A stretch of DNA of 55,478 bases, taken from Actinocatenispora comari (GTDB lineage Bacteria > Actinomycetota > Actinomycetes > Mycobacteriales > Micromonosporaceae). The notes under the pieces were generated by a model that saw only the letters and a program-made list of their open reading frames with translations, searched no databases and was not told where the DNA came from. Position numbers and translations under genes: made by a program. Below, in pieces: positions 6,846 through 29,583 of this stretch; positions within the stretch are counted from its first letter, which is position 1; each line of letters opens with the position of its first letter. The stretch is from positions 1-55,478 of the forward strand of contig NZ_BOPO01000143.1 of NCBI RefSeq assembly GCF_017312725.1, written 5' to 3'.

Positions 6846-7985
6846 ATGAACCAGAGCTTCGAGACTCTTGCCATCCATGCCGGGCAGGAGCCGGATCCCC
6901 GCACCGGCGCGGTGATCCCACCCATCTACGCCACGTCCACCTACGCGCAGGACGGGGTCGGCGGCACCCGGGAAGGCTACGAGTACTCCCGGACGAAGAA
7001 CCCGACCCGGGCCGCGCTGGAGGAGTGCCTCGCCGCGCTGGAGGGCGGCCGGCGCGGCTTCGCGTTCGCCTCCGGGATGGCCGCCGAGGACACCCTGCTG
7101 CGCACCCTGTGCCAACCGGGCGATCACGTGGTGATCCCGGACGACGCGTACGGCGGGACGTTCCGGCTGTTCAGCAAGGTCGCCGCGCGCTGGGGCCTGT
7201 CCTGGACCGCGGCCAGACTGTCCGATGTGGACAGCGTGCGGGCGGCGATGACCGACGCAACCAAGCTGGTCTGGTGCGAGACGCCGACCAACCCGCTGCT
7301 GTCGATCGCCGACATCACCGCGCTCGCCGGGCTGACCCACGAGCACGGCGCCAAGCTGGTGGTGGACAACACGTTCGCCTCGCCGTACCTGCAGCGGCCG
7401 CTGCTGCTCGGTGCCGACGTGGTGGTGCACTCCACCACCAAGTACCTCGGCGGGCACTCCGACGTGGTCGGCGGCGCGCTGGTCGTCGACGACGACGAGA
7501 CCGCCGAGCAGATCGCGTTCCACTCCAACTCGATGGGCGCGGTCGCCGGCCCGTTCGACGCCTGGCTGACCCTGCGCGGTGCCAAGACCCTCGCGGTACG
7601 GATGGACCGGCACTGCGACAACGCCGAGCGCATCGCCGCGTTCCTGGCCAACCACGACGCCGTCGCCTCGGTGCTGTACCCGGGGCTGGAGACGCACCCC
7701 GGGCACGAGACCGCGGCGAAGCAGATGCGCCGGTACGGCGGGATGGTCAGCTTCCGGCTCGCCGCCGGCGCCGACGCGGCGGTCCGGGTGTGCGACCGGG
7801 CGAGGCTGTTCACCCTGGCCGAGTCGCTCGGCGGGGTCGAGTCGCTGATCGAGCACCCCGGCCGGATGACGCACGCCAGCGCCGCCGGCTCGCCGCTGGA
7901 GGTGCCGAACGACCTGGTCCGGCTGTCCGTCGGGATCGAGAACGTCGACGACCTGCTCGCCGACCTGAGCCAGGCGCTCGCCTGA
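6846..7985 (+). CDS. metB: Cystathionine gamma-synthase/gamma-lyase (Cys/Met metabolism PLP enzyme)
   Basis: A 379-residue PLP enzyme of the Cys/Met family. The PLP lysine is K199 in VVHSTTKYLGGHSD, the cofactor aspartate lies in VVDNTFASPYLQ, and YSRTKNPTR and the C-terminal LAESLGGVESLIEHP are family signatures. It covers the whole family length. Sequence alone does not separate synthase (O-succinylhomoserine plus Cys) from lyase (cystathionine to Cys) activity. With cbs close by, a reverse-transsulfuration lyase role is reasonable. The mRNA is probably leaderless, with TAGGCT six bases before ATG. Two strong hairpins follow the stop. Confidence 0.92.
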   Translation: MNQSFETLAIHAGQEPDPRTGAVIPPIYATSTYAQDGVGGTREGYEYSRTKNPTRAALEECLAALEGGRRGFAFASGMAAEDTLLRTLCQPGDHVVIPDDAYGGTFRLFSKVAARWGLSWTAARLSDVDSVRAAMTDATKLVWCETPTNPLLSIADITALAGLTHEHGAKLVVDNTFASPYLQRPLLLGADVVVHSTTKYLGGHSDVVGGALVVDDDETAEQIAFHSNSMGAVAGPFDAWLTLRGAKTLAVRMDRHCDNAERIAAFLANHDAVASVLYPGLETHPGHETAAKQMRRYGGMVSFRLAAGADAAVRVCDRARLFTLAESLGGVESLIEHPGRMTHASAAGSPLEVPNDLVRLSVGIENVDDLLADLSQALA

Positions 7986-7998
7986 GGCTCCCGTCGCG

Positions 7999-8032
7999 GT
8001 GCGGACGGTCCGGCCCACCGGACCGTCCGCAC
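7999..8032 (+). terminator. metB terminator hairpin 1
   Basis: GTGCGGACGGTCCG and CGGACCGTCCGCAC form a perfect 14-bp stem with a six-base loop, starting 14 bases after the metB stop. Part of the 3' arm is repeated at 8052-8062. Confidence 0.8.
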
Positions 8033-8099
8033 TGCACCGGTTCGGCCCGCGGGACCGTCCGCGCCGCGCCGGTTCGGCCCGCGCGCCCGCCGACCCGTC

Positions 8100-8128
8100 C
8101 GGGTTCGCTTGTGCGCCAAGCGAACCCG
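8100..8128 (+). terminator. metB terminator hairpin 2
   Basis: CGGGTTCGCTTG and CAAGCGAACCCG form a perfect 12-bp stem with a five-base loop, upstream of the next gene's promoter. It probably backs up the first hairpin. Confidence 0.7.
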
Positions 8129-8192
8129 CGGTGCCGACCACGATCTGGAATCGGGGTCGGGGCCGCGCCGCCGGCGCCGGTAGGGTTCCACT

Positions 8193-8549
8193 GTGGACAT
8201 CGACGACGCGCAGCGGTTCGCCGCCCGCTGGGAAGCCAACTGGAACTCGCACGACCTGGACCGGGTCCTCGCCGACTACGCGGAGGACGTGGTGTTCCGG
8301 TCCCCGTTCGCGGCGACCGTCGTCGGCACCGACACCATCGTCGGCAAGCCGGCCCTTCGCGCGTACTGGACCGCCGGGCTCGCGCGGCTGCCCGACCTGC
8401 ACTTCACCGTCACCGGTGTCCAGCTCTGCCTGGACACCGTGGTGATCAACTACCGCAACGAGGCGGGTCGCGCGGTCAGCGAGGTGCTCCGCCTGCGCGA
8501 CGACCTGGTCGTCGACGGCTTCGGCGCCTACGGCCCCGCCCCGCACTGA
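8193..8549 (+). CDS. SnoaL/NTF2-like small protein
   Basis: A 118-residue protein of the SnoaL/NTF2-like cone-shaped alpha-beta fold. It opens with WEANWNSHDLDRVLADYAEDVVFRSP, the characteristic helix pair and first strand. It continues with GLARLPDLHFTVTGV and a strand-rich C-terminus. Members include small isomerases, hydrolases and binding proteins, so the function is open. GTG 8193 is six bases after TAGGGT (8181-8186), a leaderless arrangement, and no in-frame upstream start is better. It is bounded by the metB terminators and the amidase gene. Confidence 0.75.
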   Translation: MDIDDAQRFAARWEANWNSHDLDRVLADYAEDVVFRSPFAATVVGTDTIVGKPALRAYWTAGLARLPDLHFTVTGVQLCLDTVVINYRNEAGRAVSEVLRLRDDLVVDGFGAYGPAPH

Positions 8550-8670
8550 CCGCCCGATCGGCCGCGGTGTGACCGTGCGTGATCTTGTGTCACATGCTGT
8601 ACCTGGATGTCTGCATCGGGGCCGGAACTGGCACCATGGACGCGCTGCTGCCGAAAAGGGGGCGGGGTCC

Positions 8671-10035
8671 ATGGCTTGGGTCGGTGCCACGGCGAGCGAG
8701 ATCGCGCGGGCGGTGCGACGCGGCGACGCCACCGCGGGCGAGGTGGTCGACGAGCACCTGCGCGCGCTGCCCGCCGCGGACGAGCAGCTGCACGCGTTCC
8801 GCGAGGTACGCACGGTGCCCGCGCTCGGCGAGGCGAACGTCATCGACGACCTGCCCGACCTCGGCGGGCTCGCGCTCGCCGGCGTGCCGGTCGCGGTCAA
8901 GGAGAACGTGCCGATCGCCGGCGAGACCCTCTGGTACGGGTCGACCGCCGCGAGCCTGCCGCCGGCCGAGGCCGACCACGAGGTGGTCCACCGGCTGCGC
9001 GGTGCCGGTGCCGTCGTCGTCGGTACCACCCGGATGCCGGAGCTGGCGCTGTTCCCGGTCACCGACGACGAGACCGCGATCACCCGCAACCCGTGGCAGC
9101 TCGACCACACCCCGGGCGGTTCGTCCGGCGGGTCGGCCGCCGCCGTCGCCGCGGGCATGGTGCCGATCGCGCACGGCAACGACGGGCTCGGTTCGCTGCG
9201 CATCCCAGCCGCCTGCTGCGGCCTGGTGGCCCTCAAGCCGGGCCGCGGCGTGGTGCCGGCGGACATCGGCGAGACCGACTGGTTCGGCATGGCGGAGAAC
9301 GGCGTGCTCGCCACCACCGTCGCGGACGCCGCGCTCGGCCACGCGGTGCTGGCCGACGACGGTGGCCGGCTGGTCGGCCGCCGGCCCGCGGAACCACCCC
9401 GGCTCAACGTGGCCGTGTCGCTGCGCAGTCCGGTGGTCGGCGTGCTGCCCGACACCCCGGTACGCGACGCCGTCGGCCGGATCGCCCGGGTCCTGGTGGG
9501 GCTCGGGCACAGCGCCCGGCGGGCCGACCCGCGCTACCCGCCCCGGCTGGTCAAGGCGACCATGGCCCGCTGGTTCGCGTCCGCGTACGCCGACGCCGAG
9601 CGGTTCGGGCCGGAGACGCTGCAGCCGCGTACCCGGCGGCACGCCCGGATCGGCGCGTTCGCCTTCGGTCACGGCTTGGTCCGCGAGGCGGACGCGGAGC
9701 GCTGGCGGGACGACAGCCTGGCCTTCTTCGAGCGGCACGACCTGCTGCTCACCCCGGTACTGGCCGGCCCGCCACCGGCCGCCCGCCGCTGGTCGGCCCG
9801 CGGCTGGCTGCCGAACGTGCTGACCGCGGTGCGCTACGCCCCGTACGCGGCGCCGTGGAACGTCGCGGCGCTGCCGGCGCTGACCGTACCGGCGGGGACC
9901 CGGCCGGACGGGCTGCCGGTCGGCGTGCAGCTGGTCGGCCCGCCGGGCAGCGAGTGGCTGCTGCTCGGGGTGGCCGCCCAGCTGGAGGAGGCCGCCCCCT
10001 GGCCCCGGCACGCCCCGGGGTACCCGCAGCGCTGA
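8671..10035 (+). CDS. Amidase-signature family amidohydrolase
   Basis: A 454-residue member of the amidase signature family, which hydrolyses C-N bonds of carboxamides. The Ser-cisSer-Lys triad can be placed: K77 in VPVAVKENVP, S151 in GGSSGGSAAAVAAG and the nucleophile S175 in GSLRIPAACCG. The segment before the nucleophile is NDGLGS rather than the common TDTGGS, a mild deviation. ATG 8671 (MAWVGATASEIARAV) follows a purine-rich AAAAGGGGG and begins where the family begins; longer in-frame extension is not family-like. The substrate is unknown, and it is not a GatA in context because no gatB or gatC is near. Confidence 0.85.
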   Translation: MAWVGATASEIARAVRRGDATAGEVVDEHLRALPAADEQLHAFREVRTVPALGEANVIDDLPDLGGLALAGVPVAVKENVPIAGETLWYGSTAASLPPAEADHEVVHRLRGAGAVVVGTTRMPELALFPVTDDETAITRNPWQLDHTPGGSSGGSAAAVAAGMVPIAHGNDGLGSLRIPAACCGLVALKPGRGVVPADIGETDWFGMAENGVLATTVADAALGHAVLADDGGRLVGRRPAEPPRLNVAVSLRSPVVGVLPDTPVRDAVGRIARVLVGLGHSARRADPRYPPRLVKATMARWFASAYADAERFGPETLQPRTRRHARIGAFAFGHGLVREADAERWRDDSLAFFERHDLLLTPVLAGPPPAARRWSARGWLPNVLTAVRYAPYAAPWNVAALPALTVPAGTRPDGLPVGVQLVGPPGSEWLLLGVAAQLEEAAPWPRHAPGYPQR

Positions 10036-22698: not shown

Positions 22699-22782
22699 CG
22701 GCAGCGCCGGGCAGCCGGGGCCGGCGGAGGCGGTCGGGCCGGCCCGCCGGCGGCGCCGCGGGTGGCGTGTGACGATGGGGTG

Positions 22783-24849
<2,067 letters not shown>

Positions 24850-25584: not shown

Positions 25585-27882
25585 ATGGCAGGACTCGCCG
25601 CGTATTTCGGCATAAGGGCGCCCGGGGACCGGACACCCGCCGGGTCGACAGCAGCAGGCCCGGCGGCGGGCGACGGCGCATCGCGCGGCGCGGCAGCGGA
25701 CGGTCGCGCCGCGGGCGGCCGGGTGCTCGACGAGCTCGTCCGCGGGCTCGCACCGCGCGGTGACGAGGTCGCCGGCTGGCACGACGACGGCGGCCAGCTG
25801 GCCATGGCGGTACGGGCGGGGATCCCGCAGGTGCACCACGATCACCGCGGCGCGGCCGTCGTGGTGGACGGGGTCGCGGAGCCCTCCACCCTGCTCGCCC
25901 GGTACGCCGAGGGCGGCGCCGGCGCGGTCCTCGGCCGGGCGGGCACCGATCCGTACGCCGCGGTGCTCGCCGACCCGGCCCGCGGGGTGCTGGTGCTGTG
26001 CCGGCACGGCGACGGCCCACCGCTCTACTATGCCCGGCACGACGGGGCGGTCCTCGTCGCGTCGGAACCGGCCGCACTGCTCGCCGCCGGCGTACCGGCG
26101 CGGCCGGACCCGGACACCACCGCGCGGTTCCGCGTCGACGGCGAGTGCGACGTCGACACCCGTACCTTCCTCGCCGGGGTGCGCCGGCTGCTGCCCGGGC
26201 AGGTGCTGGAGGTCGGCGCGCACGGCGTCCGCCCGGTCACGCACGCCGCCGGCGCGCCGGCCACGCCGCCGCCAGCCAGTGCCGGACTGCGGCTGGGCGT
26301 ACGTCTGGACGGCGCGATGACCGGCGTCGCCCTGCTCGGCCTGGCGCACGCCGACCCGACGCCACCCGCCGACGCGGGCCCGTCCGCCGGCCCGACGTCC
26401 GGCGACGACCCGGAGCCGCTGCCGGTCTACCGGGCGCTGCTGCCCGGAGCGGCCACGCCGGCCGCGGTGACCGCCGCCGGCCTGCGGGACGCCCCGGTAC
26501 CGGTACGCATCGCCGACGTGGACGACCTGCTCGCCGGGCTGGGCGAGCCGGTACCGGATCCGGACGTGCTGGCCGCCTGGGTGGTCGCGCGGCGGGCCGC
26601 CGGTGAGGTGGACGCGATCCTGGACCCGCTCGGCGGTACCGCGCTGCTCGCCGACACCGCGGCGCCCGGCTACCTGACCCGGGTGGCGGACCGGGTCGCC
26701 ACCCGGTTCGGCGTGGCGCTGCAGATGCCGTACCGGCACGTCGCCGGTACCGGTGCGGCCCGCGAGCTGCTCGCCCGGTGCCGGCGCGGGTTGCCCGCCG
26801 AGGCGGTGCCGGCCGCGGACCCGGCGCCGGCCGATCCGACGCTGGCGGTGCTGCGGGCGCTGCGGGCCGACGTGTACGCCACGTTCCTGTCCGCGTCGTT
26901 CGCCCGCCGGCCGGGGCCCGACCCGCGGGAGGTCGTCGCCGGCTTCGGCGACCTGCTCGCCGGCCGGCGGACCGACGCCGGCCGGTTCTGGCGGGCCTTC
27001 CTGCTGGAACGGTGGCTGCGGCTGATCGAGTCCGGCGCGGCCGGACGGCCGGCCGAGGCGCCGCCGGAGCGGCCGTCCAGCACCACCGTGGACGGCGCGC
27101 GCTGGCTGCGGCTGCCGGTGGCGACCCGGACGCTGCGCGCGGGCGACGCGTACGCCGACTCGGTCGCCTGGTACGTCACCGAACGGGTGCGCGCGGCCTG
27201 CGCCGACGACCGGTACCGGCGCCGGTTCGGTCGCTGCTGGTACCTGGTGGTCGCGGCCCGGCCGCTGGCGGTGGCGCAGGGCCGGGTACGGCCGCTGTGG
27301 GAGCTGCGGCCGGGTTGGTGGGCGCGGCGGATGTCCGGGTTCGTGCGGGACCGGTCCTGGCAGGGCCTCGGCAACCCGTGGACGATGCAGACCGCGATCG
27401 ACGAGGCGGGGCTGCGCCGGATGCTGTTCGCCGCCGCGGCCGGCGCCGGTGGGCGGCTGCTGCACCGGCAGGGCCTGTTCGACCGGGTCGCCGGCGAGCC
27501 GGTGCGGCAGGTGCGCGGCCCGGTGGAGCGCGCCACCTTCCCGGCGAACGTCGCCGTCGCCGCCGCGCCGACCGACCCCGCGGCGGCCGCCGCCGACCTG
27601 CTCGCCGCGGTACGGGCGGGGCTGCGGGACGACGTGGCCACCGGCATCGCCGGCTGCGCCGTGGTCGGTACCGACCGGGTCGGCGGCGGCTGCCAGGTGC
27701 TCGCGTGCGTCGGTGACCGGCCGGCCGACTTCTACGCCGCCGCCTGCGCGGACGACCCGCTGGGCCGCCTCGCCGGTACGCCGGCCGCGGTGCTGCTGCT
27801 CGCGCCGCCGGACACCGGGACCGGCACGCCGCGGCCCCGCCGTACCGGGTCGCGTGGTGCGCGCCGGGCCGCTGCCCGCTGA
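25585..27882 (+). CDS. Asparagine-synthase-like/coenzyme F420-0:glutamate-ligase-like fusion protein
   Basis: A 765-residue protein with two distinct halves. Residues 1-about 225 follow the class II glutamine-amidotransferase half of AsnB (DGPPLYYARHDGAVLVASEP; FLAGVRRLLPGQVLEV), but position 2 is Ala in MAGLAAYFG where the catalytic Cys belongs. Residues about 230-480 follow the ATP-dependent synthetase half, yet the SGGLDS loop reads LDGAMTG (near 242) and the later SGxGGDE reads DPLGGTALL (near 347). Residues 507-about 755 resemble F420-0:gamma-glutamyl ligase (PF01996): WLRLPVATRTLRAGD, VAARPLAVAQGRV, GLGNPWTMQTAIDEAGL, and ADDPLGRLAGTP near the end. Both AsnB sites look dead. The ligase half may act, on an unknown acceptor. 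No other F420 gene is nearby. GGAG precedes ATG 25585. Confidence 0.75.
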   Translation: MAGLAAYFGIRAPGDRTPAGSTAAGPAAGDGASRGAAADGRAAGGRVLDELVRGLAPRGDEVAGWHDDGGQLAMAVRAGIPQVHHDHRGAAVVVDGVAEPSTLLARYAEGGAGAVLGRAGTDPYAAVLADPARGVLVLCRHGDGPPLYYARHDGAVLVASEPAALLAAGVPARPDPDTTARFRVDGECDVDTRTFLAGVRRLLPGQVLEVGAHGVRPVTHAAGAPATPPPASAGLRLGVRLDGAMTGVALLGLAHADPTPPADAGPSAGPTSGDDPEPLPVYRALLPGAATPAAVTAAGLRDAPVPVRIADVDDLLAGLGEPVPDPDVLAAWVVARRAAGEVDAILDPLGGTALLADTAAPGYLTRVADRVATRFGVALQMPYRHVAGTGAARELLARCRRGLPAEAVPAADPAPADPTLAVLRALRADVYATFLSASFARRPGPDPREVVAGFGDLLAGRRTDAGRFWRAFLLERWLRLIESGAAGRPAEAPPERPSSTTVDGARWLRLPVATRTLRAGDAYADSVAWYVTERVRAACADDRYRRRFGRCWYLVVAARPLAVAQGRVRPLWELRPGWWARRMSGFVRDRSWQGLGNPWTMQTAIDEAGLRRMLFAAAAGAGGRLLHRQGLFDRVAGEPVRQVRGPVERATFPANVAVAAAPTDPAAAAADLLAAVRAGLRDDVATGIAGCAVVGTDRVGGGCQVLACVGDRPADFYAAACADDPLGRLAGTPAAVLLLAPPDTGTGTPRPRRTGSRGARRAAAR

Positions 27883-27960: not shown

Positions 27961-28551
27961 ATGCGAGGAGAGGGAGCCTGGCCGCCGCACCGGGGCTGGG
28001 GAAGGGGTCGCGGCGGGGCACAGCCCGAGCCGCCGTCCGCCGCCGACGCGGCGGGCTGGATCCGCGGCCGGCTGCCCGACGAGTGGTTCGTCGAGCCGCC
28101 CACCATCACCGTCGACCGGGAGGAGATCCTGATCGTCGGCGCCATCCCGCCGCCCGAGGCGACCGGCGACGAGCCGGGGACCGAGGCGGAGCGCGCCGGC
28201 GCCGAGCAGGGCCGGATCGCCCGGTTCCGGGAGCAGACCCGGGACGAGCGGATCGGCATCGCCCAGCAGGTCGAGCACCGCTACCGGCGCCACGCCAGCT
28301 GGGGTGTCACCTGCGGCGAGACCCGCGAACTGTTCACCACCCAGTCGGTACCGGTGATGACCCGGTTGCGGCAGCCGCAGCGCGTCGTGCTGGACACGCT
28401 GGTCGACGCCGGCGTCGCCAGGTCCCGGTCGGAGGCGCTGGCCTGGTGCGTCCGGCTGGTCGGCGAGCACGCCGACGCGTGGCTCGGTGAGCTGCGCGGC
28501 GCCATGTCCACCGTCGAGGACCTCCGCCGCAAGGGCCCGGACCTCGGCTGA
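27961..28551 (+). CDS. Conserved actinobacterial protein with a ribbon-helix-helix-like C-terminus
   Basis: A 196-residue protein of a family I recall as widespread and unnamed in actinomycetes. The first half has DAAGWIRGRLPDEWF, TVDREEILIVGAIPPP and a charged helix RIARFREQTRDERIGIAQQ. The second half has HASWGVTCGETRELFTTQSVPVMTRL, then VLDTLVDAGVARSRSEALAWCVRLV, which fits the strand-helix-helix pattern of ribbon-helix-helix DNA-binding proteins. A regulatory role is inference. ATG 27961 follows GGGGAGG, with a palindrome further upstream that could be its own operator. It lies 78 bases after the fusion gene, but the promoter-like patch suggests separate transcription. Confidence 0.7.
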   Translation: MRGEGAWPPHRGWGRGRGGAQPEPPSAADAAGWIRGRLPDEWFVEPPTITVDREEILIVGAIPPPEATGDEPGTEAERAGAEQGRIARFREQTRDERIGIAQQVEHRYRRHASWGVTCGETRELFTTQSVPVMTRLRQPQRVVLDTLVDAGVARSRSEALAWCVRLVGEHADAWLGELRGAMSTVEDLRRKGPDLG

Positions 28552-28812: not shown

Positions 28813-29583
28813 GTGAGCCTGCGCACCCTCGTCTACGGCCTGTACGAGCGACGGCTTCGCGCGGGACTGTCCGGCAAGCCGCTGCCGCACCACGTCGCGG
28901 TCATCATCGACGGCAACCGCCGCTGGGCCAAGGAGAACGGCTTCGACGACCCGGCCCTCGGGCACCAGGCCGGCGGCCGCAAGATCGAGGAACTGTTGCA
29001 GTGGTGCGACGACCTCGGCATCGGGCACGTCACGATCTACATGCTGTCCACCGACAACCTGAACCGCCCGGTGGAGCAGTTGGAGCCGCTGCTGCGGGTC
29101 ATCGAGGACGTGGTGACCGGGCTGTCCGCCGACGAGCGGCCGTGGCGGGTGCACGTGGCGGGCGCGCTGGACATCCTGCCGGCCCGTACCGCCGAGGTGC
29201 TCAAGGCCGCCGAGGAACGCACCGCCGACCGTACCGGCGGGGCCCGCGTCAACGTGGCCGTCGGGTACGGCGGGCGGCGGGAGATCGCCGACGCGGTGCG
29301 CTCGCTGCTGCAGCAGCACGCCGCCGCCGGTACCACCATCGAGGAACTCGCCGAGGTGCTCGACGTCGACCACATCGCCGAGCACCTCTACACCCGCGGC
29401 CAGCCCGACCCGGACCTGATCATCCGGACCAGCGGCGAGCAGCGGCTGTCCGGCTTCCTGACCTGGCAGTCGGCGCACAGCGAGTTCTACTTCTGCGAGG
29501 CGCACTGGCCGGACTTCCGGCGTACCGACTTCCTGCGCGCGCTCCGCTCGTACGGGAACCGCCAGCGCCGCTACGGCCACTGA
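28813..29583 (+). CDS. uppS: Isoprenyl (cis-prenyl) diphosphate synthase
   Basis: A 256-residue cis-prenyltransferase that adds isopentenyl units to an allylic diphosphate. The diphosphate and Mg2+ site is HVAVIIDGNRRWAKENG. GHQAGGRKIEELLQWC, YMLSTDNLNRP, the C-terminal RTSGEQRLSGFLTWQSAHSE and FRRTDFLRALRSY complete the family pattern. By position it equals M. tuberculosis Rv1086, a short-chain Z-farnesyl diphosphate synthase, so it may not be the long-chain undecaprenyl enzyme. Product length cannot be decided here. GTG 28813 is eight bases after TACGCT, which suggests a leaderless mRNA. Confidence 0.9.
   Translation: MSLRTLVYGLYERRLRAGLSGKPLPHHVAVIIDGNRRWAKENGFDDPALGHQAGGRKIEELLQWCDDLGIGHVTIYMLSTDNLNRPVEQLEPLLRVIEDVVTGLSADERPWRVHVAGALDILPARTAEVLKAAEERTADRTGGARVNVAVGYGGRREIADAVRSLLQQHAAAGTTIEELAEVLDVDHIAEHLYTRGQPDPDLIIRTSGEQRLSGFLTWQSAHSEFYFCEAHWPDFRRTDFLRALRSYGNRQRRYGH

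Follow-up and report, generated by a model that had tools for sequence, protein, structure and literature searches.

The window analysed here, the whole of a 55,478-nucleotide stretch of Actinocatenispora comari DNA (assembly GCF_017312725.1, contig NZ_BOPO01000143.1), carries at positions 25585..27882 of its forward strand a gene whose product of 765 amino acids (plus stop) joins an AsnB-like half to a half resembling CofE, the F420-0:gamma-L-glutamyl ligase. Key residues of both active sites are replaced, and from these residues, the predicted fold, and the selection acting on the gene, we conclude that the protein, hereafter the window protein, is most likely a double pseudoenzyme, catalytically dead in both halves. 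Such doubly eroded forms occur in 13 genomes, that of the window (G000) included, and are referred to as the window clade (loci L001-L011, L016, and L017).

Architecture and residues of the window protein

All features of the gene given below lie on the forward strand. Residues 1-225 (25585..26259) form a glutaminase-like domain of the N-terminal nucleophile (Ntn) type, in which Cys2 is replaced by Ala2. They are followed by an asparagine-synthetase-like domain (residues 226-490, 26260..27054) without the residues of the pyrophosphate (PP) loop or of GxGADE: the degenerate loop DGAMTG (residues 242-247, 26308..26325) takes the place of SGGLDS, and DPLGGTA (residues 347-353, 26623..26643) that of DGQGADE. 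The earlier note on this DNA had judged the AsnB half to be dead from these replacements, and we agree. Compared with the AsnB family (AsnB, LtsA-type amidotransferases, beta-lactam synthetase, and TsnB9), the window protein has thus lost the glutaminase nucleophile, the PP loop, and GxGADE; in beta-lactam synthetase only the glutaminase side is lost, and ATP is still used. A cysteine at residue 188 (26146-26148, in a GxCD stretch) is kept in at least 12 of the 13 window-clade proteins, and is mostly a histidine in intact relatives.

The C-terminal domain (residues 500-742, 27082..27810) is CofE-like, with the fold of PF01996 and an eroded active site. Fifteen positions are strictly invariant across 28 diverse CofE-like domains, and the window protein retains 12 of them (A, M, G, R, G, F, G, P, P, G, T, and P). 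The three that are lost are the Asp of AIDGPT, replaced by R644 (27514..27516), the first Asp of DAND, replaced by G695 (27667..27669), and the Asn of DNPLG, replaced by D724 (27754..27756). Furthermore, the Glu and Lys of the SEK motif have become Ala and Arg, and the Lys of SAK has become Ala. Since acidic and amide side chains are gone while glycine, proline, and hydrophobic positions are kept, the fold appears to be preserved and the chemistry probably removed.

Structure prediction combined with structural alignment confidently places a CofE fold (residues 505-741) behind an AsnB-like two-domain fold. The former is shared by CofE, the N-terminal domain of FbiB, and the intact relatives described below. 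Identity to CofE in structural alignments is about 16-21%, and the family has the extra motifs GIGLGSPWTMQLAI and DNPLGQG; the first Asp of DAND aligns with the Asp of TDTNGR in CofE, an enzyme in which we take D150 to be a metal ligand. Pfam profile searches returned no match of the window protein to PF01996 at E≤1 and none to PF00733. PF13537 gave 16.3 bits (cut-off 25) and TIGR01536 gave 23.1 bits (cut-off 267.1), both too low, and the CofE-like domain of an intact relative (L019) reached 26.2 bits against the PF01996 cut-off of 25. The PF01996-family domain that the earlier note placed at the C-terminus is borne out by the fold and not by a profile match. A search of the PDB with our profile A1 alone found no match, and the broader profile A3 was required; a tblastn search of a plasmid collection with the window protein was also negative.

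The fused family and the order of loss

Among 61 relatives searched, 25 genomes gave matches, part of which were to ordinary AsnB only. Besides the window clade, two loci (L018 and L019) encode a fusion of this C-terminal domain to an AsnB that bears SGGLDS and GQGADE; the N-terminus is cut off in both stretches, and a further locus, L054, apparently on the same contig as L018, starts with MCGLAG. In one locus (L020) the CofE-like domain stands without an AsnB half. Bacterial genomes were scanned with the peptide patterns [VT]V[IV]IDAND and F[AGV]DNPLGQ, and the best 80 of 253 relatives were retained; among these the conservation of the two motifs is partly built in, whereas four relatives with a dead AsnB half from the window protein's order (L012-L015) came from another search free of this bias. 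After removal of six truncated or partial rows (L052, L053, L062, L071, L076, and L129), 94 sequences were aligned, comprising 64 intact fusions, 15 proteins that have lost the AsnB motifs, and 13 that have lost both sets, with a duplicate of L014 (L124) and L020 left out of the groups.

The intact fusions are nearly uniform. Cys2 is found in 61 of 64 (three are gapped), the PP-loop SGG in all and its Asp in 63, and the Asp and Glu of GxGADE in all; in the CofE-like half, the Glu and Lys of SEK, the Gln and Arg of QGR, the Asp of AID, the Lys of SAK, and the D-N-D of DAND are present in 64/64, and the Gly of QGR in 63. The AsnB-dead relatives have no Cys2 (0/15) and rarely the PP-loop Asp (2/15), and every scored CofE-like residue (SEK, QGR, AID, SAK, and DAND) is retained in 15/15. 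In the window clade, Cys2, the PP-loop Asp, the Asp of AID, the Asp of DAND, the Lys of SAK, and the Glu of SEK are each absent from all 13 proteins, and the Gln of QGR is present in all of them.

Alignments and tree show the window protein to be homologous and collinear with the AsnB::CofE-like fused family over both halves. Together with the two predicted folds this establishes that the fusion noticed earlier is real and, because an intact fused family exists, that it is a family trait and no peculiarity of this gene. The orthologue comparison found the fusion and the lost residues conserved across the 13 window-clade genomes, which rules out an assembly error at the junction. In a tree of the C-terminal domain (55 rows, 11 of the 13 window-clade proteins, midpoint-rooted for drawing), the window clade groups with six AsnB-dead proteins of its order in a single clade of 17 rows (support 100/100), the six being arranged as a grade; branches in the window clade are long, and the pairing of L009 with L011 is uncertain. 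The tree supports a sequence of events in which the AsnB motifs would have been lost first and the CofE-like ones later. Across the best tree the dead or alive state of AsnB changes at least eight times, with several forks open, and loss of the AsnB motifs hence looks repeated. The reverse order, an intact AsnB with a decayed CofE-like tail, was not seen among eight long-frame AsnB matches, a weak test in which ten matches were opened (these eight and two full fusions). Of 14 genomes examined that carry a dead AsnB or the window-clade form, 13 have this protein as their sole match to profile A1, and one, from Microlunatus (G858), has a second, divergent match. According to the gene caller, a second family member adjoins the first at L054 (434 amino acids) and L087 (625 amino acids). 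We found no description of the fusion or of a MurT replacement in the titles and abstract beginnings of the open-licence PubMed Central (PMC) literature, and the family is apparently undescribed so far.

The window-clade gene is under purifying constraint. The frame is open throughout the 13 genomes (614-779 amino acids), and the ratio of nonsynonymous to synonymous divergence (dN/dS, Nei-Gojobori) against the congeners G002 and G003 is 0.20 and 0.22 for the whole gene, 0.16 and 0.19 for the Ntn-like part, 0.29 and 0.25 for the synthetase-like part, and 0.077 and 0.10 for the CofE-like part, where constraint is strongest. For comparison, the same ratios are 0.11 and 0.06 for uppS and 0.19 and 0.22 for the upstream gene; against the more distant G001, they are 0.33 for the CofE-like part and 0.42 for the whole gene.

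The upstream gene (22780..24849, forward strand), which we take to be YyaL/DUF255-like and which has no NCBIfam match over cut-off, is present at the locus in 13/13 window-clade genomes. It also directly adjoins AsnB-dead relatives at L042, L044, and L121, and was not found beside L043, L072, or L041, where only a partial match lies about 9 kb off. Downstream, on the same strand, lie a gene resembling that of the ATP-binding transcription factor AbmR (27961..28551; NF058631, 260 bits), found at 10 other loci as well, and a uppS-like polyprenyl diphosphate synthase gene (28813..29583; TIGR00055, 203 bits); both recur across family loci.

Genomic context and co-occurrence with MurT

The neighbours of 24 CofE-like loci that lack a fused AsnB (17 + 7) were inspected. 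At six of them (L157, L158, L161, L163, L167, and L190) a MurJ gene, confirmed with PF03023, is adjacent or at most two genes away; the other 18 were assessed by eye. At L155 the stand-alone gene (9333-10028) directly follows one for a 725-residue MurT_C/Mur_ligase_M/GATase_3 protein (6871-9048). In all seven genomes of one genus (L152 and L178-L183, among the 24), separate asnB and cofE-like genes are adjacent, with divIVA next; on long-enough contigs this cell-division block adds yggS, sepF, proC, yggT, and lspA, with ftsZ in four. SepF, DivIVA, and FtsZ were confirmed by hidden Markov model in L179 only, the rest of the block being assigned by the look of the sequence. That the two genes are separate neighbours in one genus and fused elsewhere suggests that both halves work together. 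Long N-terminal extensions that look like tetratricopeptide repeats by eye precede the CofE-like domain in L157, L161, and L162, and records from candidate phyla and Actinomycetaceae (L082, L113, L123, L108, L115, and L117) show a ClpB-like AAA protein close to the fusion, checked with Pfam in L082.

A role in F420 biosynthesis was rejected for most of the tested carriers: CofD scores above cut-off in 7/21 carrier genomes, G000 included, and in 14 no CofD does. G000 itself encodes a true FbiB and CofD elsewhere in the genome.

MurT/GatD, the lipid II isoglutaminyl synthase, performs chemistry comparable to that of CofE on the alpha-carboxylate of D-glutamate (D-Glu), with ammonia derived from glutamine. 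In CofE the carboxylate is phosphorylated with GTP and an amine is then attached, as described in an excerpt of PMC10861534. PMC6085368, whose title calls the peptidoglycan amidotransferase MurT/GatD essential in Streptococcus pneumoniae, reports murT-gatD to be universal among Actinobacteria, and fused murT-gatD reading frames in that phylum are noted in part of PMC3267633. We found the MurT_C domain (PF08353) in 7 of 27 chosen genomes and, in contrast to the stated universality, in 189 of the 396 genomes of a phylum-wide sample (sample 1; 25 carriers of the family and 371 non-carriers). The carriers with MurT_C are G000, G099, G168, and G285; leaving G000 aside, 3/24 carriers have it versus 185/371 non-carriers (Fisher p = 2.6e-4). 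In sample 2, drawn from another class with the prediction fixed beforehand, MurT_C was found in 0/20 strong carriers versus 110/129 non-carriers (p = 2.2e-14); the overlap with sample 1 comprises 3 of these carriers and 31 of the 110 with MurT_C. Carriers in both samples were counted by match, and 65 genomes with weak matches (≤31.9 bits) were scored collectively as non-carriers because such matches resemble true CofE. The pattern also holds within families: f41, f127, and f56 contain 7, 11, and 2 carriers without MurT_C, and 12, 4, and 16 other members with it. Family f46 represents a third state, with eight listed genomes devoid of both MurT_C and a CofE-like match and two others with MurT_C. 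MurT_C was not found in the AsnB-dead relatives G040 and G048, nor in Intrasporangium calvum PheN6 (L077), a carrier with intact motifs, nor in Flexivirga, which likewise carries an intact fusion.

Origin, present role, and alternatives

In our preferred reading, which we regard as probable, the window protein is a double pseudoenzyme that descends from a bifunctional AsnB::CofE-like ancestor, likely with the job of MurT/GatD, and is now kept for a non-catalytic purpose. In the intact ancestor, the CofE-like half would activate a carboxylate with a nucleoside triphosphate, and where the AsnB half lives, the ammonia released there from glutamine would feed the reaction; the carboxylate would most likely be the alpha-carboxyl of D-Glu in lipid II. 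The presence of MurT in the window lineage would leave the old enzyme free to lose its chemistry, and the present role of the protein is probably one of binding or regulation in the cell envelope. The likeness to MurT/GatD would lie in the pairing of a carboxylate-activating ligase with a glutaminase and in the near-exclusive occurrence of the two systems, whereas the proteins are unrelated: a Mur ligase and a class I glutaminase in one case, CofE and Ntn/AsnB parts in the other. The fusion could represent MurT/GatD-like chemistry built from unrelated parts. Co-occurrence and context make the intact forms promising candidates to stand in for MurT/GatD. More tentatively, we suggest that the intact family may be a second modifier of the D-Glu alpha-carboxyl (forming an amide or adding an amino acid, for example, glycine) that replaces MurT/GatD in several actinobacterial lineages and candidate-phyla bacteria, with the MurT-bearing window clade keeping the dead enzyme as a regulator or scaffold. 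The earlier note's hunch of a wall component thereby gains indirect support from the family, through its murJ, division-cluster, and MurT-GatD-like neighbourhoods and the rarity of MurT among carriers.

Several observations weigh against this reading. The Fisher tests ignore relatedness, and in sample 2 three families account for all 20 carriers. Many non-carriers are also without MurT_C (186/371 in sample 1 and 19/129 in sample 2); absence of MurT does not require the family. Both MurT_C and a family member occur in Stackebrandtia (L050), Salinispora (L055), G099, G168, and G285, and weak MurT_C matches of 25-29 bits in Terrabacter (L064) and Microlunatus (L074). MurT_C is present in the only two window-clade genomes tested, G000 and G028. 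Forms that are AsnB-dead or stand alone lack a fused glutaminase, so that free ammonia or an amino acid could serve as the nucleophile. Finally, Q565-G566-R567 and conserved Trp residues persist in the window protein and could bind a ligand.

These retained residues and the low dN/dS of the CofE-like half would also fit the earlier note's proposal of a still-active amide ligase with rewired chemistry on an AsnB scaffold. Such an arrangement is credible for the 15 AsnB-dead relatives with their full set of CofE-like motifs, but for the window protein we find it improbable, as the invariant D, D, and N and the SEK and SAK residues are replaced and neither invariant Asp survives in any window-clade protein. 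A functionless, slowly decaying relic would explain the long branches of the window clade, its low identity in the CofE-like half (mean pairwise 40% among nine representatives versus 59% among 14 AsnB-dead relatives), and the presence of MurT in G000 and G028; set against the frame kept open in 13 genomes, the constant upstream neighbour, a dN/dS far below 1, and a confidently predicted fold, this explanation seems slightly less probable still. It is unlikely, but deserves more weight, that the intact family acts on another carboxylate, be it the epsilon-carboxyl of meso-diaminopimelate (mDAP), as LtsA/AsnB do, a different polymer of the wall, or a cofactor. Amidation of mDAP by proteins of the AsnB type is described for Listeria and Corynebacterium in PMC8554201, and half of the sample 1 non-carriers, the 186 mentioned above, have neither system; the MurT pattern, however, points to D-Glu, and the scarcity of CofD argues against F420.

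If the preferred reading is true, a non-homologous replacement of MurT/GatD would alter the picture of its universality in Actinobacteria. The family would also provide a candidate enzyme for the attachment of glycine to D-Glu in some actinobacteria with LL-diaminopimelate, a step for which we know of no enzyme. The type strain of I. calvum is reported to carry glycine on the D-Glu alpha-carboxyl (excerpt of PMC3035309). It would further suggest why Saccharibacteria, with their small genomes, retain a fusion of 832-883 amino acids. The window clade itself offers a natural case of the stepwise birth of a pseudoenzyme, in which the residues of both active sites have been erased and the fold preserved.
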